Source: Euzebyales bacterium
GTDB lineage: Bacteria > Actinomycetota > Nitriliruptoria > Euzebyales > Egibacteraceae
Direction: 5' to 3'
Assembly: GCA_013695145.1 (NCBI GenBank)
Contig: JACDBB010000143.1
Coordinates: forward strand, 1 to 64,000
Length of the DNA: 64,000 nt
The notes below the pieces were generated by a model. That model did not search any database, was not told the origin of the DNA, and saw only the letters and a list, made by a program, of their open reading frames with translations. The position numbers were made by a program, and so were the translations under genes. Positions 6,972 through 44,291 of the stretch are shown in pieces. Within the stretch, counting starts at the first letter, position 1. Each line of letters opens with the position of its first letter.

Positions 6972-6998
6972 CTGCCGCGCTTGCAGGAAGTTGACATA

Positions 6999-7027: not shown

Positions 7028-7050
7028 CGTGGTGCCGGGGCTTCCCCCAG

Positions 7051-7085
7051 CGCTGCGGGGCGGTCGTGATGACCGCCCCGCAGCG
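7051..7085 (+). promoter_or_regulatory. 15-bp perfect hairpin in the ftsZ 5' leader
   Basis: The arms 7051-7065 and 7071-7085 are exact reverse complements around the loop GTGAT. No T-run follows, so it is not a classical terminator. It ends 42 bases before the ftsZ start and would form a very stable stem in the ftsZ mRNA leader. Confidence 0.8.
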
Positions 7086-7127
7086 GCTGACCCGGCATCA
7101 TCTTCCCCGACATGAAGGAGTGCGCCC

Positions 7128-8294: not shown

Positions 8295-8297
8295 CCG

Positions 8298-24262: not shown

Positions 24263-24332
24263 GGTGTCAACCCCTTCGTCGAGCCGCCCCCTGCTGGGCG
24301 CGGCGGTGAGCTGTTGCGGACCGTTCCGTCGG

Positions 24333-26916: not shown

Positions 26917-26922
26917 CTGGCC

Positions 26923-27924: not shown

Positions 27925-27953
27925 GTGCCTGCCTCCTCGTCTCGATCCCGCCG

Positions 27954-29360
27954 TCAGCGCAGGTACTGGCACAGCCCTCGCTTCAGGTACTGACCGTGCC
28001 CCTGGGCGCCGAGGTACGCCTCGCCCTGGATGATCTTGCGCCCGCGTGACCACACGGTGTCCACCCGCCCGGCCAGCTCGAAGCCCTCGTAGGCCGAGTA
28101 GTCCATGTTCATGTGGTGCGTCTGGACGCTGATGGTCTGCCGCGCGGCCGGGTCGTACAGCACCACGTCGGCGTCGGAGCCGGGCGCGATGACGCCCTTG
28201 CGCGGGTACAGGCCGAACATGCGCGCCGGCGTGGTCGCGCAGGTCTCCACCCAGCGGGCCAGGCTCAGCTGCCCCTCCACCACGCCCTGGTGGATGAGAT
28301 CCATGCGGTGCTCGACCCCGCCGATTCCGTTGGGGATGGCGCGGAAGTCCTCGAGGCCGAGCTCCTTCTGGTCCTTCATGCAGAACGGACAGTGGTCCGT
28401 CGCGACCATGGCGAGGTCGTTGGTGCGCAGACCCCGCCACAGGTCCGCGGCGTGGCTGGCGTGCTTGGTGCGCAGCGGCGGTGAGCACACGTAGCCGGCG
28501 CCAGCGAACCCGGGCGCGCCCAGGTGGTCCTCCAGGGTCAGGTACAGGTACTGGGGACAGGTCTCGGCGAACACGTTCGCGCCCTCGTGGCGAGCGGCGG
28601 ACACCGCGGCCAGCGCCTCGCTGGCCGACAGGTGCACGAAGTAGACGGGCGACCCGGCGACCAGCGCCAGCTGGATCGCCCTGCTGGTGGCCTCCCCCTC
28701 CAGGCGGGAGGGGCGCGTGAGGCCGTGGTTGATCGGGGCGGTCTCGCCGCGCTCCGCGGCCTGCTGCGCGAGCGCGTCGATCGCGATGCCGTTCTCGGCG
28801 TGCATGGTGATGAGCGCGCCGTTGGTCGCCGCGCGCTGCATCGCCCGGAGGATCTGGCCGTCGTCGGAGTAGAAGACGCCCGGGTAGGCCATGAACAGCT
28901 TGAAGCTCGTGATGCCCTCGTCGACCAGGCTGTCCATCTCCTTGAGGGCGGCGTCGTCCACACCGCCGAGGATCATGTGGAAGGCGTAGTCGATCGCGCA
29001 CTGGCCCTCGGCCTTGGCGAACCAGCTGTCGAGCGATGCGCGGACCTGCGCGCCCGTTGTCTGCACGGCGAAGTCGATGATCGTGGTGGTCCCACCGAAC
29101 GCCGCCGCGACGGTGCCCGTGGAGAAGGTGTCGCTGGCGAAGGTGCCGCCGAACGGCAGCTCCATGTGCGTGTGGGCGTCGATCCCGCCAGGCACGACGT
29201 ACTTGCCGGCCGCGTCGACCACCTCGTCCGCGGTGATCTCGCCGAGTGCGGCGCTGCCTGGCTCGACGACCGCGGCGATCCGCTCGCCGTCGATCAGCAC
29301 GTCCGCCGGCTGCGCGCCCGTCGCGCTGACCAGGGTCCCACCCTTGATGAACGTCCGCAT
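27954..29360 (-). CDS. hydA: Dihydropyrimidinase (D-hydantoinase)
   Basis: This amidohydrolase opens dihydrouracil, dihydrothymine or hydantoin rings to N-carbamoyl amino acids. The 468-residue product carries the metal motif GGIDAHTHMELP, the likely carboxylated lysine in ITSFKLFMAYPG, the ligand histidines in ITMHAENG and YFVHLSA, and ATDHCPF. The ATG was chosen over upstream starts because AGGAGGG lies six bases before it and the protein then begins MRTFIKGGTLV, as in the family. It precedes the LLM oxidoreductase and importer genes. Confidence 0.94.
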   Translation of the reverse strand: MRTFIKGGTLVSATGAQPADVLIDGERIAAVVEPGSAALGEITADEVVDAAGKYVVPGGIDAHTHMELPFGGTFASDTFSTGTVAAAFGGTTTIIDFAVQTTGAQVRASLDSWFAKAEGQCAIDYAFHMILGGVDDAALKEMDSLVDEGITSFKLFMAYPGVFYSDDGQILRAMQRAATNGALITMHAENGIAIDALAQQAAERGETAPINHGLTRPSRLEGEATSRAIQLALVAGSPVYFVHLSASEALAAVSAARHEGANVFAETCPQYLYLTLEDHLGAPGFAGAGYVCSPPLRTKHASHAADLWRGLRTNDLAMVATDHCPFCMKDQKELGLEDFRAIPNGIGGVEHRMDLIHQGVVEGQLSLARWVETCATTPARMFGLYPRKGVIAPGSDADVVLYDPAARQTISVQTHHMNMDYSAYEGFELAGRVDTVWSRGRKIIQGEAYLGAQGHGQYLKRGLCQYLR

Positions 29361-29839
29361 GTCGCCCTCCTGATTCACGGGTCGGCGCTGGCGCGCCTCC
29401 TCGTCCGCTATGGCCATACGTACACGGCGTCGACGGCGGCGGCGCGCCGCGCGGCATGCCGCGCGGGGCTCGCGCCGCGCCGCCAGCCTGTCGGGCGAAG
29501 ACCGTACACCGTGCGCGGCGATCGTGGCCGACCTCCAGATCGGGCTCGACGACGCGGCGTTGAACGCGGTCTACCGCCACCAGGCGGCGACGCGCTGACG
29601 CGCAGGGAATTCGTCGCCCCGATCGTGCGGCTCCTGCGCGATGGCGCTCGACGGATCGTCGCGCACCCCTCCGACCCGGAGCAGATCGCGGTGGTTATCT
29701 CTGTTCAGGTCTTCCTGTGCGCTTCTGCGCCTGCGCCGCGAGCATCGCAGGCTGGTCCGACACTGTGTCGAAACAGCCGCGCATAGCGCAGGAATCTCGA
29801 CACGGTGTCGACCCTCTGGGGCTCAGGGCTATTCACATG
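29361..29839. other. Gene-poor stretch with palindromes
   Basis: I see no credible gene here. It holds a perfect 20-bp palindrome CCGCGCGGCATGCCGCGCGG at 29447-29466 and a family A repeat locus. Short open stretches such as one reading DLQIGLDDAALNAVYRHQ could be gene debris, but I cannot assign them to a family. Confidence 0.5.
29758..29810. repeat. Family A palindromic repeat, locus 2
   Basis: CGACACTGTGTCG (29758-29770) and CGACACGGTGTCG (29798-29810) start 40 bases apart. The spacer contains GCCGCGCATAGCGCAGGAAT, closely matching locus 1 after dnaE. Confidence 0.85.
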
Positions 29840-30222
29840 TCAGGCGCTGACGCTGACGATGACGGCGATGATCAGCAGCTTCGCCAGCCAGTCGCCCGCG
29901 TGCAGCGCGGCGAGCTTCCCCCGCACCTTCTCATGGACCACGGAGCTGGTCAGCAGCACCACTGGGAACCCGACCCACAACGCGAGCCCCAGGACGGCGC
30001 CGGCCGCCCAGCCCGTGACGCCCCCGTTCACGGCGAGCCCAGCGACGACGGCAGCCAGAACGAGATGCTTGCCGAGCTCGAACGGCATCAGCCACGCCGG
30101 CGGCCGCTCCGTGTCCGTCGCTGCGCTGCGGAGCATGTTCCCCAAGGCGACGTAGTAGGCGAACGCCGCCACGAACCCGCCGCGCCCGCCATCAGGACTG
30201 CCCAGTAGTTGAGGTCGATCAT
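29840..30222 (-). pseudogene. DUF1761-like membrane protein gene with a frameshift
   Basis: The ATG, with GAAGGA upstream, starts MIDLNYWAVLMAGAA, the usual opening of DUF1761 membrane proteins. The family match then continues in another frame as FVAAFAYYVALGNMLRSAA to the end, with WLMPFELGKHLVLAAVVAGL and further hydrophobic segments. The switch falls near 30178-30190 in the G/C-rich tract GCGGGCGCGGCGGG and is restored by adding one base. It is either a genuine one-base deletion or a sequencing or assembly error. An intact product would be about 127 residues with about four membrane segments. Confidence 0.65.
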
Positions 30223-30436
30223 GGTCCTTCGCTCCTTCGATCTGTGATCTGCGAGATGTCGCGACTGTTGACCGCGCGGCGCGGGGGAACTCATCGGCGG
30301 ATCGCCGGCACCGCTCAGTTTCGGCGGGAAGCAGGGTCTCCCCTCGTGTACGGACGTGGAGCCGTGTGAGACGCGAGACGACCGGACGTCGTCGGGACCC
30401 GACCCGACCAGCCGACAACGCGAAAGGACGTCGACG

Positions 30437-30742
30437 ATGACCAGCACCGCGCGAAACCGAGACGCGCGCCGAACCCTTGACAAGGAGTTCACGGCCGTTC
30501 TGCGGAAGAGCCCGAACAAGGGGGGCTGGACCTACGTGGTCATGCCCGGTTCCGCCGAGTTCTTCGGCACGCGAAGCCTGGTCAAGGTCCGCGGGACCAT
30601 CGATGGTCGCCCGTTCCAGAGCGCCTTCATGGCGCTGGGCGACGGCACGCACAAGCTGCCCGTCAAGACCGACCTCCGCAAGGCGATCGGCAAGGACGCA
30701 GGCGACAGCGTCCAGGTCCGGCTCGACGAGCGGGTCGACTGA
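30437..30742 (+). CDS. DUF1905 domain protein
   Basis: This small soluble protein of 101 residues matches the DUF1905 pattern: [41 protein letters not shown], then [27 protein letters not shown]. The function of the domain is not known; fusions to YdeI-type regions occur in other proteins. The ATG has AAAGGA eight bases upstream. It is oriented against the surrounding minus-strand cluster and so interrupts it. Confidence 0.8.
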
Positions 30743-31075
30743 CCGACCGTGAACAACTCACGAACGACGGTAGACCTGACGGCGGTGCCCGAGCTCGCGC
30801 CGGTTCGCTCAGCGGTCAAGAGCGGCCTCATGGTCTTGCCCCGAGCGGCTTTTGAGTCCGCGCAGCACCGGCCGGCCAGCGGACGATCCCCGGCCAGCCG
30901 GCCTCGTCCACGGCACGATCGACTGCAGCCGGGCAGCCGCGGCGACGACTCTGTCGAACGCCTCCTGCGATCCGCTCCCGGCCTCAGCTCCAGGACGCCT
31001 GCTCATACTGTTTAGCGTATCGCAACGGGTAGACCGCAGTAGAAGCACGAGGTCGGCGTCGGCGCCGATGTCGGC
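30743..31075. other. Gene-poor stretch with a possible gene remnant
   Basis: Apart from the low-confidence minus-strand remnant listed separately, I see no gene. A TA-rich block around 31002-31020 (reverse strand TACGCTAAACAGTATG) looks like a -10 region just before that remnant's ATG. Confidence 0.4.
30809..31006 (-). pseudogene. Possible truncated nucleotidyltransferase/AbiEii-like N-terminus
   Basis: The 65-codon frame starts with an ATG placed just after a TACGCT box. It reads MSRRPGAEAG...FDRVVAAAARLQSIVP, reminiscent of the opening helices of AbiEii/DUF6036-like nucleotidyltransferases. The expected glycine-serine active-site segment does not follow; the sequence becomes low-complexity. 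The family call is weak. Confidence 0.25.
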
Positions 31076-32377
31076 TCAGCGGTAGACGGCGTCGACGGCG
31101 GCGGCGAACGCCGCCGCCGCCTCGTCGACCTCCTCGGCGGTGACCGACAGCGGCGGCGCGATGCGCAGCACGTTGCCGTACAGGCCGCCCTTTCCGACGA
31201 GCACCCCGCGGCGGCGGGTCTCCTCCAGCAGCGCCGCGGCGGCCGCGGCGTCCGGTTCGATCCCGCCGCCCGGCTTGACCGTCTCGACCGCGAGCATGAG
31301 CCCCTTGCCTCGCAGCTCGGCCAGCCCGTCGGTGGCGTCGACGACAGGCTGCAGGAGGCCGCGCAGGTGCGCGCCGACCTTGGCCGCGTTGGTCTGCAGG
31401 TCGTGGTCGAGCAGGTAGCGCAGGTTCGCCAGCGCCGCGGCCGACGACAGCGGGTTGCCGCCGAACGTGGAGATCGAGTTGGCGGGCAGGCAGTCCATGA
31501 TCTCGGCGCGGGCGACCACGCCGCCCAGCGCGACGCCGTTGCCGACGCCCTTGGCGAAGGTCAGCAGATCCGGGGTCGCCCCGTGCGCCTGGTAGCCCCA
31601 GAAGTGCTCGCCGGTGCGCCCCCAGCCCGTCTGGACCTCGTCGCAGATGAACGGGATGCCGTGCTCGGCGAGGACCTCGGAGAACGCCCCGAACAGACCG
31701 TCGGGGGGGGTGGCGAACCCGCCCACGCCCTGGATGGGCTCGGCGATCAGGCAGGCGACGTCGCCCGCGGTCATCATGTCGATGACGTCGCGCAGGTCCT
31801 GTACGCAGGCGGCGATGTAGGCGTCGTCGTCGAGGTCTCGGAACGGGCTGCGCAGCCGGTAGCCGCCGTGCACGTAGCTGACCGACAGGCCAGACAGGCT
31901 GGTCGCCGACCACGACCGGTTGCCGGTGATCGCGATGGTGGAGAACGACCGGCCGTGGTAGCTGTTGCGCATCGCCAGGACCTGGTTGGAGCGGCGGTAG
32001 GCGGTGCACAGCAGCAGGGCGGCGTCGTTGGCCTCGGTGCCCGACGTGGTGAGGAACACCTTGGCGTCGGGGATTCGTGACAGCTCGGCGATCATCTCGG
32101 CCAGCTCGACCATCGGCTGGGAGACGTACAGGGTCGAGGTGTGCAGGATCTTGCCGGCCTGTTCGCGGATCGCGTCGACCACCTCGGGGACCGAGTAGCC
32201 GGTCATCGTGGTCAGGATCCCGCCGAAGAAGTCCAGGTAGCGGGTGCCCTCGACGTCCCAGACGTGGCGGCCCTCGCCGCGTTCGATGGCGATCGGCTGG
32301 TCGTAGTACACCGCGAGCCAGGATGGCAGCACCGCCCGCTCGCGGGCGTACAGGTCGGCGTTGGTGCGCTCGGTCAT
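31076..32377 (-). CDS. Class III PLP-dependent aminotransferase (beta-alanine/omega-amino acid type)
   Basis: The 433-residue product has SGTEANDAALLLC, the cofactor Asp region CDEVQTGWGRTG, and the PLP lysine in LLTFAKGVGNGVALGG. The fold is that of AGXT2, beta-alanine-pyruvate and related transaminases. Placed next to beta-ureidopropionase and near dihydropyrimidinase, it probably removes the amino group of beta-alanine or 3-aminoisobutyrate to give a semialdehyde. The ATG start has no strong ribosome site. Confidence 0.88.
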   Translation of the reverse strand: MTERTNADLYARERAVLPSWLAVYYDQPIAIERGEGRHVWDVEGTRYLDFFGGILTTMTGYSVPEVVDAIREQAGKILHTSTLYVSQPMVELAEMIAELSRIPDAKVFLTTSGTEANDAALLLCTAYRRSNQVLAMRNSYHGRSFSTIAITGNRSWSATSLSGLSVSYVHGGYRLRSPFRDLDDDAYIAACVQDLRDVIDMMTAGDVACLIAEPIQGVGGFATPPDGLFGAFSEVLAEHGIPFICDEVQTGWGRTGEHFWGYQAHGATPDLLTFAKGVGNGVALGGVVARAEIMDCLPANSISTFGGNPLSSAAALANLRYLLDHDLQTNAAKVGAHLRGLLQPVVDATDGLAELRGKGLMLAVETVKPGGGIEPDAAAAAALLEETRRRGVLVGKGGLYGNVLRIAPPLSVTAEEVDEAAAAFAAAVDAVYR

Positions 32378-32397
32378 CGCAGGTCCGCTCAGGATTC

Positions 32398-32423
32398 CAT
32401 GACGGTCGCTGCGCGACCGCCAC
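32398..32423. repeat. Family C 26-bp palindromic repeat, copy 2
   Basis: It starts CATGACGGTCGC and ends GCGACCGCCAC, with a GGTCGC-TGC-GCGACC hairpin. It lies in the gap upstream of the aminotransferase start. Confidence 0.6.
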
Positions 32424-32469
32424 AACCAAGATTGTGAGAATCGCCTCCGCGGGCTCCGCGACTCACGAC

Positions 32470-33309
32470 TCAGCCCTGGGTCAACGGCCCGTACAGGTCC
32501 GGCCGCCGATCCCGGTAGAACGCCCACTGGTTGCGGACCTCGGTGATCATGCCGAGGTCGAGGTCGCGGACCACCAACTCCTCGTCTGTGTCCGAGGCGG
32601 GGTCGCCGACGAACTGGCCCCGCGGGTCGGCGAAGTAGGAGCTGCCGTAGAAGTCGTTGTCCCCCAGCGGCTCGATGCCCACCCGGTTGATGGCCGCGAC
32701 GAAGTACATGTTGGCCGCCGCGGATGCGGTCTGCTCGAGCTTCCACAGGTATGAGGACAGGCCGCGGCTGGTGGCCGAGGGGTTGAAGACGATCTCGGCG
32801 CCGGCCAGGCCCAGCGCCCGCCAGCCCTCGGGGAAGTGCCGGTCGTAGCAGATGTAGACCCCGACCCGCCCGACCGCCGTGTCGAACACCGGGTACCCCA
32901 GGTTGCCCGGCCGGAAGTAGAACTTCTCCCAGAAGCCCTTCACCTGCGGGAGGTGGGTCTTGCGGTACTTGCCGAGGTAGGTCCCGTCGGCGTCGATCAC
33001 CGCGGCGGTGTTGTACTGCAGCCCCGGCTGCTGTAGTTCGTAGACCGGCAGGACCATGACCATGCCGAGCTCGGCGGCCAGCGCGGAGAAGCGCTCGGTG
33101 GTCGGACCGGGCACCGCCTCGGCGTAGTCGTAGAACTCGGTGTCCTGCACCTGGCAGAAGTAGGGCCCGTAGAACAGCTCCTGGAAGCCCATCACCACGG
33201 CGCCCTGCGCGGCCGCCTCACGCGCGCTGCGCTCGTGCTCGTCGAGCATCGAGGACTTGTCGCCGGTCCACTTGAGCTGGACCACCGCCGCTCGTACCGT
33301 CTCGCTCAT
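32470..33309 (-). CDS. Beta-ureidopropionase / N-carbamoyl amidase (nitrilase superfamily)
   Basis: This enzyme hydrolyses N-carbamoyl-beta-alanine to beta-alanine, CO2 and ammonia. The 279-residue product has the nitrilase catalytic Glu in GFQELFYGPY, Lys in GKYRKTHLPQ and Cys in VGVYICYDRHFPEGWR; NPSATSRGLSSYLW also fits plant-like and bacterial N-carbamoyl amidases. It lies just upstream of the aminotransferase on the same strand. Together with the nearby dihydropyrimidinase this gives the lower reductive pyrimidine pathway. Confidence 0.92.
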   Translation of the reverse strand: MSETVRAAVVQLKWTGDKSSMLDEHERSAREAAAQGAVVMGFQELFYGPYFCQVQDTEFYDYAEAVPGPTTERFSALAAELGMVMVLPVYELQQPGLQYNTAAVIDADGTYLGKYRKTHLPQVKGFWEKFYFRPGNLGYPVFDTAVGRVGVYICYDRHFPEGWRALGLAGAEIVFNPSATSRGLSSYLWKLEQTASAAANMYFVAAINRVGIEPLGDNDFYGSSYFADPRGQFVGDPASDTDEELVVRDLDLGMITEVRNQWAFYRDRRPDLYGPLTQG

Positions 33310-33330
33310 CGTTGTGCCTCCTCAGCGTCT

Positions 33331-33356
33331 CATGGCGACCGCTTCGCGACCGCCAT
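33331..33356. repeat. Family C 26-bp palindromic repeat, copy 3
   Basis: It starts CATGGCGACCGC and ends GCGACCGCCAT. It lies between the LivF-like gene and the beta-ureidopropionase gene and aligns base for base with the other two copies, with CTCAG just upstream as in copy 2. Confidence 0.6.
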
Positions 33357-33389
33357 CAGCGCAACCGTCGGCGCAGGTTACCGCAGGCA

Positions 33390-34124
33390 TCAACGCCGCT
33401 GGAGCGCCCGCTCCACCGCGGGGCTCGCCGCCAGCTCGGCGCCCGTGCCGTCCAGCGTGAGGCGGCCATCCTCCAGCAGGTACGCGCGGTGGCTCGCGGC
33501 CAGCACCGGCTCGGTCGCGGCCTCCGCCGCCAGCACGGTCAGACCACAGGTTCGGTTGGCCAGGTCGATCGTCTCGTACAGCTGGCGGGCGGCGTCCGGG
33601 GGGAGCCCGTCGCCGAGCGCGTCCAGCACCACCAGGCGGGGCGAGGGCATGAGCGCGCGACCCAGCTCCAGCATGCGCCGCTCCGCGGGATCCAGCTCCC
33701 CGGCGGCGCTGCGCGCGCGGGCGGCAAGCTGAGGGAAGCGCCGGTAGATGTCCTCGATTCGGGGGCGCACCCGCGTGCGGTCCCGTGCCAGCACCATTCC
33801 GAGCTCGAGGTTCTCCCGGACGCTCATGCCAGGGAACACGCTGCCATACTGTCCTACCAGGGTGATGCCCGCGGCGCGCAGCGCGTCGTGGAACCGCAGG
33901 CCGGTGATGTCGCGATCGTCGAACAGGATGCGCCCGCGGGTGACCGGCACCAGGCCGCAGAGAGTCAGCAGCAGCGTCGACTTGCCCGCTCCCGGCGGAC
34001 CGACCAGGCCGACGATCTCGCCCTCGCCGACGTGGAGGCTGGCCCCGCGCAGCGCCCCGGTGCCGTCAGGGTGCTCCACGTGCAGGTCGTGGACCTCCAG
34101 CAGGGGGCGCGCGTCAGTCCACAT
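33390..34124 (-). CDS. LivF-like ABC ATPase with degenerate catalytic motifs
   Basis: The 244-residue product is most like LivF, the branched-chain amino acid/amide importer ATPase. Walker A is intact (GPPGAGKST, 42-50). The ABC signature expected as LSGGEQQM reads LDPAERRM (144-151). Walker B reads LVVLDALGDGL, with Ala (A169) at the catalytic glutamate. The H-loop region reads LAAEAATE. It could bind ATP but hydrolysis is doubtful. The ATG overlaps the LivM-like gene by 11 bases. No LivG partner gene is seen. Confidence 0.85.
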   Translation of the reverse strand: MWTDARPLLEVHDLHVEHPDGTGALRGASLHVGEGEIVGLVGPPGAGKSTLLLTLCGLVPVTRGRILFDDRDITGLRFHDALRAAGITLVGQYGSVFPGMSVRENLELGMVLARDRTRVRPRIEDIYRRFPQLAARARSAAGELDPAERRMLELGRALMPSPRLVVLDALGDGLPPDAARQLYETIDLANRTCGLTVLAAEAATEPVLAASHRAYLLEDGRLTLDGTGAELAASPAVERALQRR

Positions 34125-35103
34125 CGGCCACCTTCTCTCGTGCGGCGGGGCCGGCGAGCTGATCGGGCCGCTCCCCGGACCGCGGCGGCCGAATCTTTGT
34201 TCCTGGACGGAGCCTGGTCACGCCTGCCGGCAGATGCAGCGCGACCAACAGGACCACCGCAGCCTCGGCCAGCGGACGCCACGTCACCGCGCCGACGGGC
34301 CACGCCTCGCGCACCCCGATCAGCAGGCCGGCTCCCACCATCGGGCCCCAGATGGTGGGCCCGCCCACCAGCGCGGCCCACACGACATCGAAGGAGCGCG
34401 CGAGCGAGAAGGCGCTGTCCGCGTCGATGAACAGCTGCTGGGACGCCCAGAGCGCGCCGACGGAGCCGGACGCGGCGCCCGCCAGCGCGCAGACCGTCAT
34501 GCAGCGGCGGCGGGTCGGGGCCGCAGCGGACGGATGACCGGGACGCGTGCGGGCGGCGACGACCGCTCCGATGATCGTCACCAGCAGGATCGCCAGCGTC
34601 GCCTCGTACAACGCGCGGGGGGTGACCACGGGCGGGAGGGCGAGACCCTGGGGGCCGCGCGTGAGGGGAGTTGCGGTGCGCACCAGCTCCCGACCGGCCA
34701 CCAGCAGGGCGACCGTGGTCAGCGCGAACGCCGGGGCGGGCAGGCGCCGCGCGACGACGCCCGCCGCGGTTCCCACCGCGCTCGCGGCGAGCGCGGCGAA
34801 TCCAACCGCGGCAGGCGGCGACCAGCTGAGGGTGCCCAGCGCGGCCCCGGCGACGTACGCGCCGATGCCGACGTACAGCGCGTGGCCGAGATCCACCCGG
34901 TCGAGCTGGGTGCGGATGGTTCCCCACGCCGTCGCGAGGGCCGCCAGTGCCAGGAGCTGGGTCGCGGTGAACAGCCAGGTGCTGGCCGGCGGGATCCAGG
35001 TCGCGTGGTCGGCGGCGATCGGCGCCCCCGCGCAGGCTCCGGCGAGAACCAGGCCGGCCATCACCAGCCGACCCCTGCGGGCGACGGCCCGCAGCCCGCT
35101 CAC
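34114..35103 (-). CDS. LivM-like branched-chain permease
   Basis: This integral membrane subunit of 329 residues has about eight to nine hydrophobic segments and the LivM-type pattern LDLGHALYVGIGAYVAG (here VDLGHALYVG) and ARSFDVVWAALVGGPTIWGPMVGAG. The GTG overlaps the stop of the LivH-like gene (GTGA). The C-terminal tail is longer and charged. Ligands in this transporter class include branched amino acids, amides and urea; none can be specified here. Confidence 0.86.
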   Translation of the reverse strand: MSGLRAVARRGRLVMAGLVLAGACAGAPIAADHATWIPPASTWLFTATQLLALAALATAWGTIRTQLDRVDLGHALYVGIGAYVAGAALGTLSWSPPAAVGFAALAASAVGTAAGVVARRLPAPAFALTTVALLVAGRELVRTATPLTRGPQGLALPPVVTPRALYEATLAILLVTIIGAVVAARTRPGHPSAAAPTRRRCMTVCALAGAASGSVGALWASQQLFIDADSAFSLARSFDVVWAALVGGPTIWGPMVGAGLLIGVREAWPVGAVTWRPLAEAAVVLLVALHLPAGVTRLRPGTKIRPPRSGERPDQLAGPAAREKVADVD

Positions 35104-36014
35104 CACCGCTCCTCTGCCGGCTGCGGAGCCGGTGCCGCGGTCGCAGGGGGGTGGTCCTGGGCGGCTCGCAGCGGTCGGACGAGCAGCCCGACCACCACGA
35201 CGGCAGCCGACAGCAGGAGGACGACGCGGCTGCCGGCCCCCGGCGCGAGCGACGTGACTGCCACCTCGGTGCAGCCGACGGCGATCGCCGCTGCGATGAC
35301 TGTGCGGACCCTGCGCAGCCCCGACACCGCGGCGACGGCCAGGACCTTGACCGTCACGGCGGTGCCCGTCATCGGCTGCACCCACTGCAGCTGGGCCAGC
35401 AGGACGCCCGCGGTCAGCGCCACCGCGATCGCCGCGACCACCGTGAGACGGACCATCCGTGGCACGTCGACACCCAGCAGGTGCGCGGCTGACCGGTTTC
35501 CAGCGACCGCTCGCAGGCTCTTGCCCGTCCACGTGCGCCGCAGCGCGGCGACGCACGCGGCGGCGAGCAGGCCGCCGAGCAGCGCGACGACGCCGTGCGC
35601 CGCGGTCAGCTCGACCGGGCCGATGCTCCACGTCCCCGCGGTGGTGTCGCGCGCGGTGACCGGCATGGCCGACGTCGCCGCGCGTAACGCGGCCTGGAGC
35701 CCCAGCGACAGCGCGAAGGTGGCCAGGACCGAGGCGATCGGGGGTCGTGTCAGCAGCGGTGCGAAGATCAGCCGGTGGAGGGCGGGACCGAGCACGGCGG
35801 CGGCCGGCACCACGACCAGCACGGCGGCCAGGGGCTCGGCGTCGTAGCGGGACTGCACCCACCAGGCGGTGTACGCGCCCACGACGGCCAAGTCGCCGTG
35901 CGCGAGGTTCACGACCCGCGCGACGTCCCACAGCAGCCACAGGCTGAGCGCGAGCACCGCGTAGATGAGGCCGAGACCGAGCCCCTCGACGGCCACCTGC
36001 AGGAGCGTTTCCAC
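35100..36014 (-). CDS. LivH-like branched-chain permease
   Basis: This 304-residue membrane protein has the LivH hallmarks GLIYAVLALSLWLLWDVARVVNLAHGDLAVVGAY near the N-terminus and SLRAVAGNRSAAHLLGVDVPRM in the cytoplasmic coupling loop. The GTG start lies three bases after the response-regulator stop, so signalling and transport genes appear to form one transcript. No periplasmic binding protein gene of the LivK type is nearby. Confidence 0.87.
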   Translation of the reverse strand: METLLQVAVEGLGLGLIYAVLALSLWLLWDVARVVNLAHGDLAVVGAYTAWWVQSRYDAEPLAAVLVVVPAAAVLGPALHRLIFAPLLTRPPIASVLATFALSLGLQAALRAATSAMPVTARDTTAGTWSIGPVELTAAHGVVALLGGLLAAACVAALRRTWTGKSLRAVAGNRSAAHLLGVDVPRMVRLTVVAAIAVALTAGVLLAQLQWVQPMTGTAVTVKVLAVAAVSGLRRVRTVIAAAIAVGCTEVAVTSLAPGAGSRVVLLLSAAVVVVGLLVRPLRAAQDHPPATAAPAPQPAEERW

Positions 36015-36017
36015 GCG

Positions 36018-36707
36018 CTAGACCCCGAAGCGGTAGCCGAGTCCGTGCTCGGTGAAGAAGTATTCGGGGTGGCCGAGGTCCCGTTCGATCTTCTGGCGCA
36101 GCCGGCTGACATAGACGCGCACGTACTGGGTCTCGTCCCGGTACTCCTCGCCCCACACGGCCTCCAGGATGGCGGTGTGCGGCACTGTCCGACCGAGGTG
36201 CTCCATGAGGTAGCGCAGCACCGCGAGCTCCGTCCGGCTGAGGTCCAGCGACTCGCCCCGGCACGTGGCGGCGAGGCGGTCGGCGTCGAAGGTCAGGTCG
36301 CGGTAGCGCAGCACGGTGCCGGTGGCGGCCTGCTCGCTCCAGCGGACGCGCCGCAGGGCGGAGCGGACGCGGGCAAGGAGTTCGTTCACCCCGAACGGCT
36401 TCTCCAGGCAGTCGTCGGCACCCTGGTCGAGGATCCGGACCTTGTCGGCCTGCTCGCTGAGCGCGGTCAGGACGATGATGGGCATGACGGAGCGCTCTCG
36501 AATCCGACGGCAGGTCTCCAGGCCGTCCATCCGCGGCATCATGATGTCGAGAATCGTGAGATCGAGGGGTTGGCTCTCCACGATCGCGAGGGCCTCGAGG
36601 CCGTTGCCGGCCTCGGTCACCTCGCACCCGCGCGCGGCGAGGTTGCGGGCGACGAACCGCCGCAGCGGCGGGTCGTCGTCGACCACCAGGACCCGTGGCG
36701 CGGTCAC
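36018..36707 (-). CDS. OmpR/KdpE-type response regulator
   Basis: The 229-residue regulator has a receiver domain (RVLVVDDDPPLRRF; phospho-acceptor D54 in TILDIMMPRMDG; conserved Lys in CLEKPFG) and a C-terminal winged-helix DNA-binding domain (YRDLTFDADRL ... VRVYVSRLRQKIERD ... TEHGLGYRF). The start is the GTG overlapping the kinase stop (GTGA), giving MTAPRVLVVDDD. It is expected to be phosphorylated by the adjacent kinase. Likely targets are this operon and the divergent TRAP genes. Confidence 0.93.
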   Translation of the reverse strand: MTAPRVLVVDDDPPLRRFVARNLAARGCEVTEAGNGLEALAIVESQPLDLTILDIMMPRMDGLETCRRIRERSVMPIIVLTALSEQADKVRILDQGADDCLEKPFGVNELLARVRSALRRVRWSEQAATGTVLRYRDLTFDADRLAATCRGESLDLSRTELAVLRYLMEHLGRTVPHTAILEAVWGEEYRDETQYVRVYVSRLRQKIERDLGHPEYFFTEHGLGYRFGV

Positions 36708-39016
36708 CGCGTGGCTCCCGCACCGGCGGGCTGGTTGCACGGAACACAGAAGCGGATCAGCGTTCCCAGCGCCACGTCCTCCAGCCAGATCCGACCGCCG
36801 TGCACCTCGACGAAGCCGCGGCAGATCGCCAGGCCCAGCCCGAAGCCGCCGAGTTCCCGCGTCAGGCCGTCGTCGCCGCGCACGAAGCTGTCGAACACAC
36901 GGTCGCGCAGGTCTCCCGCGACACCTGGTCCGCGATCACGGACGCCGAACACCACCCAGCCGTCGGCTGCCTCGGCCTGCACGTCGATGGGCGCGCCCTC
37001 CGGAGAGAACTTGAGCGCGTTGTCGATCAGGTTGCGGACACAGATCTCGATGCGGGCGCGGTCCAGCTCGACGGCGGGCAGCGAGGGGTCCACCGCGACG
37101 CGGACGCGCGCCCGGGCGTCAGGGGCGAAGCCGGACACCACCCGGCCGAGGAGCTCGGCCGGGCCGACCGGCTCTGGGCTGAGGGTGACCATCCCCGCCT
37201 CGATCCGCGACACGTCGAGGACGTCGCGGACCAGCTCCACCAGCCGGTCGGTCTCGCTGCTGATCGTCGCCAGGAACTCACGCTGGTCGTCGACCTCCCA
37301 CGCGACGTCGTCGGCGAGCAGCGTGGTCGCGTAACCCTTGATGTTGGCCAGCGGAGCCCGCAGCTCGTGGGAGACGGTCGCCAGAAGCGCGGATTTCATG
37401 CGTTCCACGGCCCGGTCCTCGGTGATGTCCTGCCAGAGCTGGCCGCGCCCCATCGGCGCTCCCGTGCCGTCGGTCACCACGAAGCTGCGGATGCGCAGGT
37501 CGCGGGCGCGCCCGCCCACCTCATGGGTGACGACGACCGGTGCGGGGGCCGGCAGCTCGTCGTCCGGCGGCGCAACGCCAGGGATGCGGCCGAACACCGT
37601 CTCCACGGGCGCGCCGACGATGGCCTCCGAGTCGAGGCCTGCCAGGTCGGCGGCGGCGGGGTTGTGATAGGCGATCGCGCCGCCGGGGTCGGTGAGGACC
37701 AACCCGTCGTCCAGGCTCTCCACGATGGCCTCCAGCCGGCTGGTCTGGCGGCGCAGCTGTTCGTCGACCTGGCTGTACAGGGCGGCGTTCTCCATCGCCA
37801 GGGACGCGAAGCCGACGAAGGTGGATGCCAGCTCCAGCTCCGAGTGGCTGTAACGGTAGGGCACCGGCTTGTAGACGAGCAGGACCGCGGGGGGTGCCAC
37901 TGACGTCGACAGCGGGATGGCCAGCACGGACCCGAAGCCCTCGCGGTCGGAGCGCCGGCGCAGGTCGGCGTAGGAGTGGTCCCGTGCGGTGTCGGAGACC
38001 TGCACGGGGGAGCCGGAGCGCAGGGCGCGCATGGCGGGAGAATCCGGCGCGGTGGGGGAGATCCGTAGATCGCGGACGAAGCGCTCCGAAAGGCCGAGGC
38101 TGGCACGGATGACGAACACGTTGGCGCGCTCGTCCAGGCTGAGGACCGCGCACCGGTCGACGCCGAACAGCCGCTGGAGCTGGTGGAGGATGTTGTCGAA
38201 CACCTCCTGCACGTCCAGCGACCCGGCGACGATCCGGTTGGTCTCAAGCAGTGTGGAGAGCTCCAGGAAGTTGCGGGTGATGTGGTCCTGGACAGCCTGG
38301 AGGCTGGTGGCCAGCCGCCCCACCTGATCGCCGCGCCGAGTGATCTCGTCCAGGTTGGTGCGCGCGGTGTCCGGGACTCGGCCGCGCCAGCGGAGGTCCT
38401 CGCTGGTGTCGATCAGACGCTCCAGCGGCGCCAGGAACCCGCGGCGCACCGCGAGCCACACCATGGCTCCCAACAGCAGCGCCGCGATGCCGACCGTCGC
38501 GAAGCCGCGCAGCACCGCCGACTCCACCGCGGCGCCTGCGGCACCGCGTCGCTGGAGGAGCACCCGCCCGCCTTCCGCGGTCTCCACGCTCACGTGGCGC
38601 CACTGGGTGCCGTCGGGATCGCGGCTGCGGAACTGCGTGGCGACTCGGGAGGTCCGAACCACAAGGCCGGTCCAGCGCCGCCACAGCGGGCCGTCCTCGC
38701 CGGCACCCAGGTCGGGAGGCACCAGCTCCCCGTCCGGGGTGAGGAGCGCGACACCGCTCACCCCGCTTAGGTCGACCACGGCGGCGTCACGCAGCCCGGC
38801 GGGCAGCCGGTCCACCATGCGAGCGATCCCCTCAGCGGTGGCCAACTCCCTGGCGCCGAGCTCGGCGCTGGACCTGCGAACGCTCCAGGTGGCCGCGGCG
38901 GCGCTCGCGAGCACGATCACGACGACGGCGGCCGACACGGCGCGGCGCAGCGTCCGGGAGGGATCGCGTCCCCGGTCCCGGCCGCCGCTGGAGGACTGGC
39001 CCTGTCCGGTGAGCAT
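36704..39016 (-). CDS. Membrane sensor histidine kinase with HAMP, GAF and PAS domains
   Basis: The 770-residue kinase has a membrane segment at about 27-46, an extracytoplasmic region to about 168, a second segment at about 169-191, a HAMP region, a GAF domain (about 265-415) and a PAS domain (about 425-535). A HisKA domain follows with phospho-acceptor H550 in LLATVSHELRAPLANIKG, then a HATPase_c domain (LIDNALKFSPEG, RDRGPGV, GGFGLGLAICRG). A CATACT -10-like box eight bases before the ATG (reverse strand, 39025-39030) suggests a leaderless transcript. It heads the operon with the regulator and Liv-type genes. Confidence 0.92.
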   Translation of the reverse strand: MLTGQGQSSSGGRDRGRDPSRTLRRAVSAAVVVIVLASAAAATWSVRRSSAELGARELATAEGIARMVDRLPAGLRDAAVVDLSGVSGVALLTPDGELVPPDLGAGEDGPLWRRWTGLVVRTSRVATQFRSRDPDGTQWRHVSVETAEGGRVLLQRRGAAGAAVESAVLRGFATVGIAALLLGAMVWLAVRRGFLAPLERLIDTSEDLRWRGRVPDTARTNLDEITRRGDQVGRLATSLQAVQDHITRNFLELSTLLETNRIVAGSLDVQEVFDNILHQLQRLFGVDRCAVLSLDERANVFVIRASLGLSERFVRDLRISPTAPDSPAMRALRSGSPVQVSDTARDHSYADLRRRSDREGFGSVLAIPLSTSVAPPAVLLVYKPVPYRYSHSELELASTFVGFASLAMENAALYSQVDEQLRRQTSRLEAIVESLDDGLVLTDPGGAIAYHNPAAADLAGLDSEAIVGAPVETVFGRIPGVAPPDDELPAPAPVVVTHEVGGRARDLRIRSFVVTDGTGAPMGRGQLWQDITEDRAVERMKSALLATVSHELRAPLANIKGYATTLLADDVAWEVDDQREFLATISSETDRLVELVRDVLDVSRIEAGMVTLSPEPVGPAELLGRVVSGFAPDARARVRVAVDPSLPAVELDRARIEICVRNLIDNALKFSPEGAPIDVQAEAADGWVVFGVRDRGPGVAGDLRDRVFDSFVRGDDGLTRELGGFGLGLAICRGFVEVHGGRIWLEDVALGTLIRFCVPCNQPAGAGATR

Positions 39017-39074
39017 GACCGGTGAGTATGCCCGCCCTTCGCCGCGGAGGAGCCGACGGCAGGCTGGCGAATCG

Positions 39075-39087
39075 AAACGCCGCGTTT
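39075..39087. promoter_or_regulatory. Small palindrome in the divergent kinase/TRAP control region
   Basis: AAACG-CCG-CGTTT is a 13-base inverted repeat lying between the divergent kinase and TAXI genes. It is a candidate operator, chosen only by symmetry and position. Confidence 0.3.
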
Positions 39088-39197
39088 ACAACTCCTGGCC
39101 CTGCTCTCAAGGAGCGTTGAGGAACCTTGCCCCGCGGAGCGCGCCGGGCGAGGGTCCATCCCAGGCCGGGTCACCCGGACCGAGAGACCGAGAGGGA

Positions 39198-39218
39198 GAC
39201 CGGGCGACGCGCCCGGTC
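39198..39218 (+). promoter_or_regulatory. 9-bp hairpin in the TAXI gene leader
   Basis: GACCGGGCG and its exact complement flank ACG. The hairpin ends 22 bases before the TAXI ATG and just before the GGAG ribosome site, so it could influence translation initiation. Confidence 0.5.
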
Positions 39219-39240
39219 GATGCGGACACAGGAGCAGCCG

Positions 39241-40362
39241 ATGGCCATGACGACGCAGCGAAGCTTGTGGGTGGTGGCGGTGCTGGCGACCCTGGCGCTG
39301 GTGCTGGTGGCGTGCGACGGCGGCGGGGCGGGCGCGGACGACCCCGGTGCGGAGGAGGTCGGCACCGAGGAGGCCGCCGAAGAGGAGGCCGGCACCGAGG
39401 AGGCCGCCGAAGAGGAGGCCGGCGCCGAGGAGGCCGCCGACGAGCGGCCCGATGTCGCCCTGTCGATCGCGACCGGCGGCACGGGCGGTGCGTACTTCCC
39501 GTTCGGGGGAGCGCTGGCCAGCCTGCTCAGCCGGGAGCTGTCCCACGTGAACGCCACCGCGGAGGCGACCGGCGCGTCGGTGGAGAACGTCCGTCTGCTC
39601 GAACAGGGCAACATCGAGCTGGCGCTCGTCCAGGCCGATGCCGCCTTCGAGGCATACAACGGCGTGGGATCGTTCGAGGGCGAGCCCGTCGAGCTGCGCT
39701 CGATCGTCGCCATGTACCCGAACTACATGCAGCTGGTCGCGCTGGCGGAGTCGGGGATCGCGACCTACGACGACCTCGCCGGCGCGCGGGTGTCGGTCGG
39801 TGACGCCGGCAGCGGAGTGGAGCTCACGTTGCGCGCCATCGCCGACGCGCTCGGCGACTCCTTCGACGACTTCGGTGACGTCGTGCAGTTCGGCTACAAC
39901 GACCAGACGTCAGCCTTCCGCAACAACCAGATCGACGTCGGCAACTACCAGGGCGCGCTGGGTCTGGCGGCCATCACCGACCTGTCGTCGACCACCGACA
40001 TCACGATCCTGTCGTTCTCCGACGAGCAGATCGACACCATCGTCGAGGCGCTGCCCTACCACGGGCCCGGCGTGATCGCGGCGGGCACCTACCCCGGCGT
40101 GGAGGAGGACGTCGCCGTCCCGGCCCTGTGGAACTTCATCGTGGTCTCGGCCGACATGGACCGCGAACTGGTCTACGAGATCACCAAGACCGCCTACGAG
40201 AACCAGGAGGCGCTCATCGCCGGCCACCCGGAGGGGGAGAACACCACCCTGGAGAACGTCGAACAGGGCGTCGTGCCCTACCACCCGGGAGCCATTGACT
40301 ACTTCGAGGAGGCGGGACTTGACCTCCCTGAGAGGAGCTATCCCGACGAGTGGGACGGCTAG
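39241..40362 (+). CDS. TAXI-family TRAP transporter solute-binding lipoprotein
   Basis: The 373-residue precursor has a lipoprotein signal ending LVLVACDG. An acidic linker made of three near-identical ten-residue units (GTEEAAEEEA type, 39361-39450) leads to a TAXI domain (SIATGGTGGAYFPFGGALASLLSREL, VENVRLLEQGNIELALVQADAAF). It delivers ligand to the TRAP permease downstream. The ATG at 39241 is preceded by GGAG with six-base spacing; an ATG at 39220 is in frame. After its stop come three tandem ACTAGG hexamers (40364-40381). Ligands of TAXI proteins (often dicarboxylates or amino acids) vary. Confidence 0.93.
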   Translation: MAMTTQRSLWVVAVLATLALVLVACDGGGAGADDPGAEEVGTEEAAEEEAGTEEAAEEEAGAEEAADERPDVALSIATGGTGGAYFPFGGALASLLSRELSHVNATAEATGASVENVRLLEQGNIELALVQADAAFEAYNGVGSFEGEPVELRSIVAMYPNYMQLVALAESGIATYDDLAGARVSVGDAGSGVELTLRAIADALGDSFDDFGDVVQFGYNDQTSAFRNNQIDVGNYQGALGLAAITDLSSTTDITILSFSDEQIDTIVEALPYHGPGVIAAGTYPGVEEDVAVPALWNFIVVSADMDRELVYEITKTAYENQEALIAGHPEGENTTLENVEQGVVPYHPGAIDYFEEAGLDLPERSYPDEWDG

Positions 40363-40363
40363 C

Positions 40364-40381
40364 ACTAGGACTAGGACTAGG
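40364..40381 (+). repeat. Three tandem ACTAGG hexamers
   Basis: The repeat follows the TAXI stop codon and puts several stop codons in one frame. It lies before the ribosome site of the DUF1850 gene. No function is evident. Confidence 0.7.
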
Positions 40382-40402
40382 TCGGCGCAGGAGGGAGCCT
40401 CG

Positions 40403-41008
40403 GTGGTGCGGTCGCCGCGCCTGGCGGGACGCGCCGCGGACGTCCGAGTGGCCGCGCTCGTCGCCTGCGTGCTGGCTGCGGCGTGGATCTCGGTCGAGGT
40501 GGCGCGTCCGTTCGACGTCCTCGCCGTGGACGTGGCCACCGGCGATCGCCCCCGAACGGCCCTGCTGCTGCCCGCCACCGGTGAGGAAAAGTTCGAGGTC
40601 CGCTACGAGCACTCCTACAACCACTTCACCATCCGGGAGCTGTTTTCGCGCGAGCGCGACGAGGTCGTCGTCGTCGGCCAGCACGTCAACGGCAACGGCG
40701 CCGGCATCGGCGAGGTGGCGGGTGAGACGGCGTTCGTCGACGCCGGCCACGGCTGGTCACGGCTCACCGGTCTGGAGCGGCCGCTGGGCGGCCCGCTGCG
40801 CCTGCGCGTCGGCGCGATCGCCGACCACCGCCTGATCCACCGCTGCCGTGATGTCGCGCTGGTCGAGGTCGTCCCGCCTGGTGAACCGGTCCAGATCGGA
40901 TGGGCGCGCGTCGGGTTGGTGGGGTGGGTGCGCGCCCACGTGTCGCTGCTGCGCGCCACGCCCGACGCGACCGGGTGCGCGGACCCGGCGCAGGGCAGCG
41001 GCCGATGA
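40403..41008 (+). CDS. DUF1850 domain protein of a TAXI-TRAP operon
   Basis: The 201-residue product has one N-terminal hydrophobic segment and the DUF1850 core (FEVRYEHSYNHFTIRELF, GHGWSRLTG). DUF1850 genes are commonly placed between the TAXI binding protein and the fused TRAP permease, as here; the molecular role is unknown. The GTG at 40403 follows GGAGGGA by six bases; GTG 40406 is equally in frame. The stop overlaps the permease ATG (ATGA). Confidence 0.87.
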   Translation: MVRSPRLAGRAADVRVAALVACVLAAAWISVEVARPFDVLAVDVATGDRPRTALLLPATGEEKFEVRYEHSYNHFTIRELFSRERDEVVVVGQHVNGNGAGIGEVAGETAFVDAGHGWSRLTGLERPLGGPLRLRVGAIADHRLIHRCRDVALVEVVPPGEPVQIGWARVGLVGWVRAHVSLLRATPDATGCADPAQGSGR

Positions 41009-42948
41009 GCGGGTCGGAACCTGCCCCTGGAAGTCAGATGCTGGACGCGCCTGGCCAGGAGGTCGCCGCCGGCGCGGTGAAGGTGCGCGGCGCGGCGCTG
41101 TGGACGGTGAAGATCCTCGGCACCGTCTACGCGCTCTACTACATCGTCACGGCCCAGGCGGGGCTGCAGTCGCCCCAGGCGCACCGGGGCCTGTACATCG
41201 GCGGCGCGACCATCCTCATCCTGCTGCTGTTTCCCGGCAGACGCGGGAGGGAGCGGACCTCGGTCCCCTTCTACGACTGGGTCCTGGCCGGCCTGGCCGC
41301 GGTGTCATCGGTGTACTTCGTGTTCTTCTACCCGGACATGGTCGGACGAGCGGGGCTGCCGACCACGACCGACATCGTGATGGGCGCGCTCATCATCGCG
41401 CTCAGCATCGAGGTCACCCGCCGCACGGTGGGGTGGACCCTGGCGATCATCGGCCTCGCGTCCATCGTCTACGTGTTCGCCGGACCCTGGATGCCCGGTC
41501 TGCTGATCCACCGCGGCCACGGCGTCGACCGCTTCGTGGCCAGCCAGTTCATGTCCTTCGGCGGCGTCTTCGGGCTGGTCGCCGACATCTTCGCCACGTT
41601 CGTGCTGCTCTTCATCTTCTTCGGGACGATCCTCGAGCGCAGCGGCGCGGCGCAGTTCTTCATCGACCTGCCATACGCCATCGCCGGTCGCTTCCGCGGC
41701 GGCCCCGCCAAGGCGGCCATCCTGGTCAGCGCGCTGATGGGCTCCATCTCCGGCAGCGCCGTGGCCAACGTGATGACGACCGGCACGTTCACGATCCCGC
41801 TGATGAAGCGTGTCGGGTACCGCAAGGAGTTCGCCGGCGGCGTGGAGACCGCCGCCTCGACCGGCGGTCAGATGCTGCCCCCGGTGATGGGCGCCGGGGC
41901 GTTCATCATCGCGGAGTTCACCCGCACGCCGTACACGACCATCGTGCTGGTCTCGATCGTCCCGGCCCTGCTCTACTTCGTCACCGTCTACCTGCTGGTC
42001 GACTTCGAGGCGCTGAAGAAGAACCTCGCCGGCGTGCCCAGCGACGAGCTGGAGAGGCCGCTGGACGTCCTCAAGCGCGGGTGGTACCTGTTCCTGCCGG
42101 TCGGGGTGATCTTCTGGCTGATCCTGGCCGACTACAGCCCCGCGTTCGCGGCGTTCTGGGGCATCATCGCCGGGCTGGCCGTCGGATTCGTCCCCTACCA
42201 GGGTCGGCGCATGGGGGCACGCGACGTCTTCGACGCCATGTGGCAGGGTTCGGTGAAGTCGTTGGCCGTCGCGGGCGTGGTCGGCACGATCGGTGTGGTC
42301 CTGGGGGTGCTGAACCTCACGGGACTGGGGCTGAAGTTCACCGACCTGGTGGTCGCCGCCTCCGGCGGACGCCTGCTGGTGGCGCTCATCCTCGTCACGC
42401 TGGCGTCGTGGGTGCTCGGCGCGGGGCTGACGGCCACCTCGTCGTACGTCATCGTGGCGATCCTCGCCGCGCCCGCGCTGGAGCAGCTCGGCCTCAGCCT
42501 CCTCGTCGCGCACCTCATCATCTTCTGGGTCAGCCAGGACGCCAATCTCACGCCGCCCATCTGCATCGCCGCGTTCGCCGCGGCGAGCATCGCGGACGCC
42601 AAACCCATGGCCACCGGCTTCGAGTCGTGGAAGCTGGGCAGAGGCCTGTACATCGTGCCGCTGCTGATGGCCTACTCCCCGCTGATCGGGGGGACGCCCA
42701 TGGAAGTGGCCCAGACAGCCGGCACCGCCCTGATCGGCATCTACGGGCTGTGCGCGGGCACCAGCCAGTACCTCCTCAGACGGACGCGCTGGTGGGAGAC
42801 CGGGCTGCTCGTCGTCGGCGGGGGCCTGCTCATCGCACCCGGATGGACGACCAACCTGACCGGTACCGGCCTGATGGCGCTGGCGTGGGTGCTCCAGGGC
42901 GGCCTCCGGCGGACCGGCCGGAAGGTCACTGAGGTCGCCGCCAGCTGA
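41005..42948 (+). CDS. TRAP transporter permease, fused 4TM/12TM (DctQM-type)
   Basis: The 647-residue protein has an N-terminal small-subunit-like part with about four to six membrane segments and a large DctM-like part. Typical segments are GSISGSAVANVMTTGTFTIPLMKRVGY, GGQMLPPVMGAGAFIIAEF and FWVSQDANLTPPICIAAFAAASIA. Fused permeases of this form pair with TAXI proteins and use an ion gradient rather than ATP. The ATG overlaps the DUF1850 stop, so the three genes form one operon. Confidence 0.94.
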   Translation: MSGSEPAPGSQMLDAPGQEVAAGAVKVRGAALWTVKILGTVYALYYIVTAQAGLQSPQAHRGLYIGGATILILLLFPGRRGRERTSVPFYDWVLAGLAAVSSVYFVFFYPDMVGRAGLPTTTDIVMGALIIALSIEVTRRTVGWTLAIIGLASIVYVFAGPWMPGLLIHRGHGVDRFVASQFMSFGGVFGLVADIFATFVLLFIFFGTILERSGAAQFFIDLPYAIAGRFRGGPAKAAILVSALMGSISGSAVANVMTTGTFTIPLMKRVGYRKEFAGGVETAASTGGQMLPPVMGAGAFIIAEFTRTPYTTIVLVSIVPALLYFVTVYLLVDFEALKKNLAGVPSDELERPLDVLKRGWYLFLPVGVIFWLILADYSPAFAAFWGIIAGLAVGFVPYQGRRMGARDVFDAMWQGSVKSLAVAGVVGTIGVVLGVLNLTGLGLKFTDLVVAASGGRLLVALILVTLASWVLGAGLTATSSYVIVAILAAPALEQLGLSLLVAHLIIFWVSQDANLTPPICIAAFAAASIADAKPMATGFESWKLGRGLYIVPLLMAYSPLIGGTPMEVAQTAGTALIGIYGLCAGTSQYLLRRTRWWETGLLVVGGGLLIAPGWTTNLTGTGLMALAWVLQGGLRRTGRKVTEVAAS

Positions 42949-43091: not shown

Positions 43092-44276
43092 TCACCCGTC
43101 GGCCAGCACGCGCTCGACGATCACCTCCGCGATGGCCAGCGACGAGGTCGCGGCCGGGGATGGGGCGTTGCGGACCTGGACCACGCGGCCGTTGCGCTCG
43201 ATCCGGAAGTCCTCGACCATCGACCCGTCGCGGTCGACGGCCTGGGCGCGGACGCCCGCGGGGGCGCGGACCACGTCACCGGGCCGCAGCTCGGGCACGT
43301 AGCGCCGCGCCGCGGCCACGAACCGCCGACGGCTCATCGCCCGCCAGACCTCGTCGGCGCCGGTGCGCCAGTGGCGGCGCGCCAGGCGCAGGAAACCTGG
43401 GTCCGTCAGCGTCGCGGCCAGCTCGGAGGGTCGCACGTCCCGCAGCCGGTAGCCCTCGCGGGCGAACGCCAGCACGGCGTTCGGCCCGACCAGCACGCCT
43501 CCGTGCACGGTGCGGGTGAGGTGCACGCCGAGGAACGGGTAGCGCGGGTCGGGAACCGGGTAGATCAGCCCCTTCACGAGGTCGCGCGCCTGCGGGCGCA
43601 GCGCCAGGTAGTCGCCCCGGAACGGCACGATCGTCGGGTACCGCGGGCCACCGGACGCGTGCGCCAGCCGGTCGGAGTACAGGCCGGCGCACACCACCAC
43701 GCGGTCGAACGCGTCGGCCCCACCCCCATGGCGTACGAGGGCCTCGCCGTTGCTGGCGTCCACCCCGGAGACCGTGACGCCGGTGCGGACCTCACCGTCG
43801 GCGGCGCGGACGTCGTCGGCGTAGGCGGCGGCGACGGCGGTGAAGTCGCAGATCGCGGTGCGCGGGCTGTGCAGGGCCAGGCGGCCGTCGGCGTGGGGCT
43901 CGATCCGCCGCAGCTGTGCCGCGTCGAGCATGCGCAACCCCGCCACCCCGTTCGCGTGGCCGCGCTCCTCCAGCGTCCGCAGCCCCGCCTCCTCGCGCGC
44001 CTCGACGGCGACCACGACCTTGCCGCACTCCTCGTAGGGCAGGTCGCGGTCGGCGCAGTAGGCGCGCAGCAGACCAACCCCGCGGGTGCACAGCCGCGCC
44101 TTCAGCGAGCCGGCGGGGTAGTACAGGCCGGCGTGGACCACACCGCTGTTGCGGCCAGTCTGATGCCGGCCGAGCGCCGGCTCCTTCTCGAGCACCGTCA
44201 CCCGATGGCCCGAGCCCGCGAGCTGCCGCGCCGTCGCCAACCCGAGGATCCCCCCGCCCACCACCGCGATCCGCAT
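43092..44276 (-). CDS. lhgO: L-2-hydroxyglutarate oxidase-like FAD enzyme
   Basis: This FAD-dependent oxidase of the DAO family matches LhgO, which oxidises L-2-hydroxyglutarate to 2-oxoglutarate. The 394-residue product has the dinucleotide motif [42 protein letters not shown] and [11 protein letters not shown], all characteristic of LhgO. It is divergent from the SDR gene; the shared upstream region carries a tandem 14-base repeat. Confidence 0.9.
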
Positions 44277-44291
44277 GTGCCGAGTCCCAAT

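Follow-up and report, generated by a model that had tools for sequence, protein, structure and literature searches.

Within the 64,000-nucleotide stretch of Euzebyales bacterium DNA analysed here (the window; contig JACDBB010000143.1, our C77, in a genome of 3.33 Mb and 235 contigs), five genes on the minus strand encode, in order, a sensor histidine kinase, an OmpR-type response regulator, and LivH-, LivM- and LivF-like components of an ATP-binding cassette (ABC) importer of the LIV type. Both the operon structure and the loss of essential importer parts are well supported. More tentatively, we interpret the whole as a two-component-controlled transport locus in which a non-hydrolysing LivHMF acts as the sensory partner of the kinase, an interpretation that is plausible and somewhat short of probable. 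The genes and the altered positions within them are as follows.

36704..39016, minus strand: sensor histidine kinase, 770 residues; identified by Pfam, motif positions and alignment with a relative
36018..36707, minus strand: OmpR/PhoB-type response regulator, 229 residues; GTG start within a GTGA overlap; identified by Pfam, NCBIfam and its junction
35100..36014, minus strand: LivH/UrtB-like permease, 304 residues; docking-loop stretch kept
34114..35103, minus strand: LivM-like permease, 329 residues; GTGA overlap; docking-loop stretch 12 residues short
34507..34542, minus strand: site of the missing LivM docking-loop residues, at about residues 188-199
33390..34124, minus strand: LivF-like ATPase, 244 residues; Walker A kept, catalytic glutamate and usual signature lost
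33618..33620, minus strand: codon of LivF Ala169, the catalytic-glutamate position, which is Gly in the relative

All five genes are present as proposed in a first-pass annotation of this DNA, which described them as overlapping or abutting and probably transcribed together. From kinase to LivF, the junctions are a 4-base overlap, a 3-base gap, a 4-base overlap and an 11-base overlap, with start codons chosen by homology for the regulator (in both genomes compared) and for LivM (in the window), and otherwise taken as the first in the open frame. The same four lengths are found in locus L069 (contig SKNK01000038.1), from a metagenome-assembled genome of the Nitriliruptoraceae, where the kinase-regulator-LivH-LivM-LivF order is also identical and is accompanied by divergent TAXI and DUF1850 genes, followed by the end of the contig. 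This neighbourhood comparison, which the first-pass annotation had suggested, indicates that the five-gene arrangement is not due to chance, as the four junctions recur despite protein identities of only 46–76%. Conservation of the three overlaps and of the 3-base gap lends good support to a single transcript. Scans of positions 33300-39400 for sigma-70 promoters and terminators found none, a result that is uninformative at a G+C content of 72.5%.

The LivF-like protein belongs to the ABC_tran family (Pfam), and doubts already raised about its catalytic competence proved correct. Every one of 76 control rows, which represent 75 distinct places because L010 and L070 are the same place, has Glu at the catalytic position; the window has Ala169 and L069 has Gly instead. 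The controls are those tblastn matches (E 1e-6) whose span on the query exceeds 150 residues, from 46 loci made up of 15 stretches of the window's own genome, 29 search loci, L069 and L070; matches of lesser span were discarded. The best solved relative of LivF, 1ji0, has Asp-Glu at the catalytic position in its alignment. The signature motif is altered as well, reading LDPAER in the window and ISRTEQ in L069, while the Walker A lysine and the Walker B aspartate are retained in both proteins.

Both permeases match the Pfam family BPD_transp_2, with 90.8 bits for LivH and 40.1 bits for LivM (cut-off 26.8), and thus have the LIV-type permease fold. In LivM, the stretch between two conserved anchors, which we take to be the ATPase-docking (coupling) loop of this importer family, measures 39 residues in the window and in L069, whereas all 24 controls have 51. 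These controls are all of the matches (E 1e-3) found in 33 loci, namely the 15 own-genome stretches and L041-L058. The counterpart in LivH has 49 residues in the window, in L069 and in 14 aligned controls, the 14 best of 23 matches in the same 33 loci. A sequence search of the PDB with the pair of LivH proteins yielded nothing at E 0.01.

A functional LIV-type importer would have two ATPases carrying Walker A, signature and catalytic glutamate, a docking loop on both permeases, and a LivK (Peripla_BP_6) protein in the operon. The cluster encodes neither LivG nor LivK, and no Peripla_BP_6 binding protein was matched on the window's contig or on that of the relative (C480). When the window was searched with six control ATPases, the only ATPase besides LivF was one near 25.3 kb that belongs to an NMT1-type system; on the relative's contig, LivF is the only ABC ATPase. 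The docking loop is complete on LivH but short on LivM. Because a single ATPase remains, which would dock only on LivH and is devoid of the catalytic residue, ATP-driven transport by LivHMF alone is unlikely, and we consider the importer very probably dead as an ATP-driven pump. The earlier suggestion that the genes serve something other than simple uptake is borne out to this extent, as the absence of LivG and LivK from the cluster, the lost catalytic glutamate and the short LivM loop (which had escaped notice in the first-pass annotation) are common to both cluster-bearing genomes.

The LivH, LivM and LivF genes have nonetheless been kept. Between the window and L069, third codon positions are near saturation, with chance-corrected identities of 0.11 (LivH), 0.08 (LivM) and 0.12 (LivF), whereas first and second positions are far above chance in all three genes (corrected 0.41-0.63). 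This contrast indicates that the LivH, LivM and LivF proteins have been selected through a long period of divergence. None of the six genes compared in the two genomes contains an internal stop.

A search with LivM among 66 genomes of the class detected one clear orthologue outside the window, that of L069 (218.8 bits), all others scoring at most 50.3 bits. The two cluster-bearing genomes belong to different families of the class, and the proteins they encode share 61% (kinase), 76% (regulator), 47% (LivH), 46% (LivM), 55% (LivF) and 74% (TAXI) identity. Signalling and permease genes distributed independently of each other would speak against a linked function, but within the class this was not seen: the N-terminal 540 residues of the kinase have a match at E <= 1e-20 in only 2 of the 66 genomes, and both carry LivHMF. 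As the genomes are incomplete (the second one is 53% complete), absence from the others is weak evidence. A member of the same family as the window's genome (G013) gave a weaker, GAF-type kinase match. Among 396 genomes of the phylum, LivM was matched at 1e-15 only in the window's own genome, and the kinase at 1e-12 in 44, its own included, with the others reaching at most 70.4 bits, mostly in the GAF region. A scan of an 84,980-species collection with two short patterns matched 61 stretches, one of which encoded a relative, again the L069 contig; distant relatives may have been missed with patterns this short. A plasmid search with LivM gave no match, and one with the first 540 residues of the kinase gave 29 records; among the 15 matches listed, all were partial, with 25-33% identity.

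The kinase and regulator make up an OmpR/PhoB-type two-component system. In addition to a membrane/extracytoplasmic N-terminal part, the kinase has GAF, PAS, HisKA and HATPase_c domains (Pfam), with intact H550 in HisKA and intact N and G boxes. The regulator consists of a receiver and a Trans_reg_C domain, with D54 and K103 conserved. Of the HAMP-GAF-PAS architecture originally assigned to the kinase, GAF and PAS were confirmed by Pfam; the HAMP domain is weak (E = 0.14, under the Pfam cut-off) and has no match in the relative. Residues 106-123 of the kinase (GEDGPLWRRWTGLVVRTS; window 38648-38701, minus strand) are identical in both genomes, with variable flanks, and this block in the N-terminal part is a possible ligand or partner site, judging from its sequence conservation.

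Divergently oriented from the kinase lie three genes (39247-42948) that the first-pass annotation had omitted. Together with the intergenic region, they contain the following features.

39076..39123, no strand assigned: conserved intergenic block of 48 bp (CGTTTACAAC ... CGTTGAGGA), candidate operator/promoter
39247..40362, plus strand: TAXI-type TRAP substrate-binding protein, start at 39241 or 39247; TIGR02122, 299.8 bits (cut-off 84.35); conserved in L069
40295..41008, plus strand: DUF1850 protein, start uncertain; PF08905; conserved in L069
40900..42948, plus strand: fused TRAP permease; TIGR02123, 623.4 bits (cut-off 320.65)

With a binding protein and a fused permease that both score above curated cut-offs, these genes encode a TAXI-TRAP transporter, the most obvious candidate for control by the kinase and regulator. 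The kinase-TAXI intergenic region measures 230 bp in the window and 252 bp in L069, and both contain the 48-bp block. Of 2000 dinucleotide-shuffled versions of the window's intergenic region, one reached the local alignment score of this block, and the core of the block occurs only once in the window. The block is a candidate site for binding of the regulator and/or for the divergent promoters. In the class, TAXI proteins gave 25 matches across 20 of the 66 genomes, 23 of them outside the two clusters; 15 of these 23 loci were inspected, and none of the 15 has a kinase, regulator or LivH/M/F match at 1e-8, several of the contigs being short. In the TAXI protein of the window, an N-terminal membrane- or lipoprotein-like part is followed by a long linker of acidic repeats (EEAAEEEAG; window 39340-39450), and a similar acidic stretch is present in that of the relative (L069 15195-15330).

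We propose the following working model. LivH and LivM would still form a permease pair, on which LivF would dock at LivH only and bind ATP, without a useful rate of hydrolysis and hence without pumping. LivHMF would then be a membrane-embedded sensory partner of the kinase, i.e. a pseudo-transporter. Occupancy of LivHM by a ligand, perhaps supplied via TAXI or another binding protein, and/or occupancy of LivF by ATP would influence kinase activity, and the regulator would act at the conserved intergenic block, adjusting expression of the TAXI-TRAP transporter and of its own operon. That LivHMF serves sensing at all is a tentative reading of the sequences. The most specific version, in which LivHM reads a ligand delivered by TAXI, LivF reports the ATP state, and the kinase so gated controls the abundance of the true transporter, is at present improbable in its full detail.

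Several observations weigh against a sensory role. The cluster is known from only two genomes, so the features they share may stem from one ancestral event. The SGG of the signature is missing from 15 of the 76 control rows too, and the altered signature of LivF is therefore not special by itself; moreover, the glutamine at the switch position, replaced by Ala in the window, is kept in the relative. Structure predictions of single chains from two-sequence alignments gave mean predicted local distance difference test (pLDDT) values of 45.8 for the N-terminal 262 residues of the kinase and 40.1 for LivM, and were not used. LivH, LivM and LivF (46–55% identity) are less conserved than kinase, regulator and TAXI (61–76%), as would be expected if LivHMF matters less. 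Finally, the kinase has extracytoplasmic, GAF and PAS regions of its own, and may not need a partner.

The stronger of two alternatives is that the kinase senses by its own extracytoplasmic, GAF or PAS regions and controls TAXI-TRAP, with LivHMF as a co-transcribed former importer that is either a minor target or a decaying relic. The location of the conserved block between kinase and TAXI, and the higher conservation of TAXI, kinase and regulator relative to the other products, agree with this possibility, as do plasmid-borne TAXI-TRAP loci that lie beside an ordinary two-component system in three of six cases (L152, L153 and L154). The six were chosen for inspection from 30 listed of 388 records. 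However, a slowly decaying relic is hardly expected to retain open frames, identical junctions, protein-level constraint and Walker A in both genomes, and we regard this explanation as possible but rather doubtful. Transport by LivHMF with LivG and a binding protein borrowed from other Liv operons, or by LivHM as a passive or binding-protein-fed facilitator, is unlikely: the window's genome does have 24 further BPD_transp_2 matches (26 in total), eight matches to Peripla_BP_6 (LivK-type; four in the relative's genome) and many Liv-type ATPases, further ATPases being encoded elsewhere in the relative as well, and TAXI-GltS provides a precedent for a TAXI binding protein with a non-TRAP membrane partner (PMC12344293), but in both genomes 12 residues are missing from the LivM stretch required by a second ATPase, and LivF has lost its catalytic glutamate.

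The interpretation of LivHMF as a sensory partner can be compared with several known systems. In BceAB-BceS, an ABC transporter and a kinase form a sensory complex in which the transporter is the sensor of the kinase, according to two reports (PMC7828314, PMC10314905), and BceA uses ATP hydrolysis (PMC7828314). The present locus likewise combines ABC transporter genes with those of a sensor kinase and a regulator, as in BceAB-BceS/BceR. It differs in that the Bce transporter is of another ABC type with a hydrolysing BceA, whereas here the transporter is of the LIV type, lacks the catalytic glutamate and has a shortened LivM loop, and the kinase contains GAF and PAS domains. Both permeases match BPD_transp_2 only (Pfam), rather than a Bce-type permease family. 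By analogy, the kinase-LivHMF locus would resemble transporter-coupled kinases in working principle, without being a member of the Bce module. A second parallel is found in the CbrA/CrbS-type transceptor kinases (SLC5-STAC), in which a transporter fold is the sensory part of a kinase; this is a secondary transporter fused in one polypeptide, in contrast to the separate ABC-type subunits encoded here.

The closest relatives of the permeases and ATPase themselves are in the LivKHMGF/UrtABCDE importers, with which they share BPD_transp_2 permeases and best NCBIfam matches to UrtB (LivH), UrtC (LivM), and LivF and UrtE (LivF). Those importers differ by the features described above, i.e. LivK and LivG in the cluster, a catalytic glutamate in LivF and a full-length LivM loop. 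Scores were under the curated cut-offs for all six NCBIfam matches of LivH, for the single one of LivM, and for the best 25 of 162 of LivF; the UrtB match of LivH, for instance, reached 108.5 bits (cut-off 250.3) and the LivF match of the ATPase 153.2 bits (cut-off 441). The three plasmid loci mentioned above also combine TAXI, a TRAP permease and an adjacent two-component system, and two of the three encode DUF1850. There, a kinase or ATP-binding protein and a regulator annotated as sigma-54-dependent directly follow the TAXI-TRAP genes, and the plasmid gene tables, which are incomplete, list no Liv genes in the vicinity; the window has an OmpR-type regulator, LivHMF and a divergent orientation instead. 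In a literature search limited to open-licence papers, no title among those listed refers to a module of such composition.

The genes surrounding the locus offer some hints to a substrate. An L-2-hydroxyglutarate oxidase (43092-44279, minus strand; 503.9 bits, cut-off 299) adjoins the TRAP permease, suggesting a C5 dicarboxylate as substrate of TAXI-TRAP. Directly downstream of LivF, positions 23054-33309 (minus strand) encode a dihydropyrimidinase, an F420-type oxidoreductase, a class III aminotransferase, a carbon-nitrogen hydrolase and the NMT1-type ABC transporter, with binding protein, two permeases and an ATPase (open frame 25136-26728, with LSGGMQQ and LLMDEP). This region looks like a cluster for uptake and breakdown of pyrimidines or hydantoins. 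In L069, two inosine-uridine-type nucleoside hydrolases and a PfkB-type kinase are encoded downstream of LivF (5528-8666). The dihydropyrimidinase-related genes and nucleoside hydrolases hint at pyrimidines or nucleosides. As indications of the sensed ligand, neither of the two hints is strong.

The SUR proteins of animals have a somewhat similar working mode to the motor-stripped ABC sensor proposed here. If our interpretation of LivHMF as the sensory partner of the kinase is true, an ABC importer can lose its motor and yet stay as a sensor in bacteria. The locus would then be a testable case for the origin of transporter-coupled kinases, in which the lost residues and the missing piece of the LivM loop mark the functions that have become dispensable.

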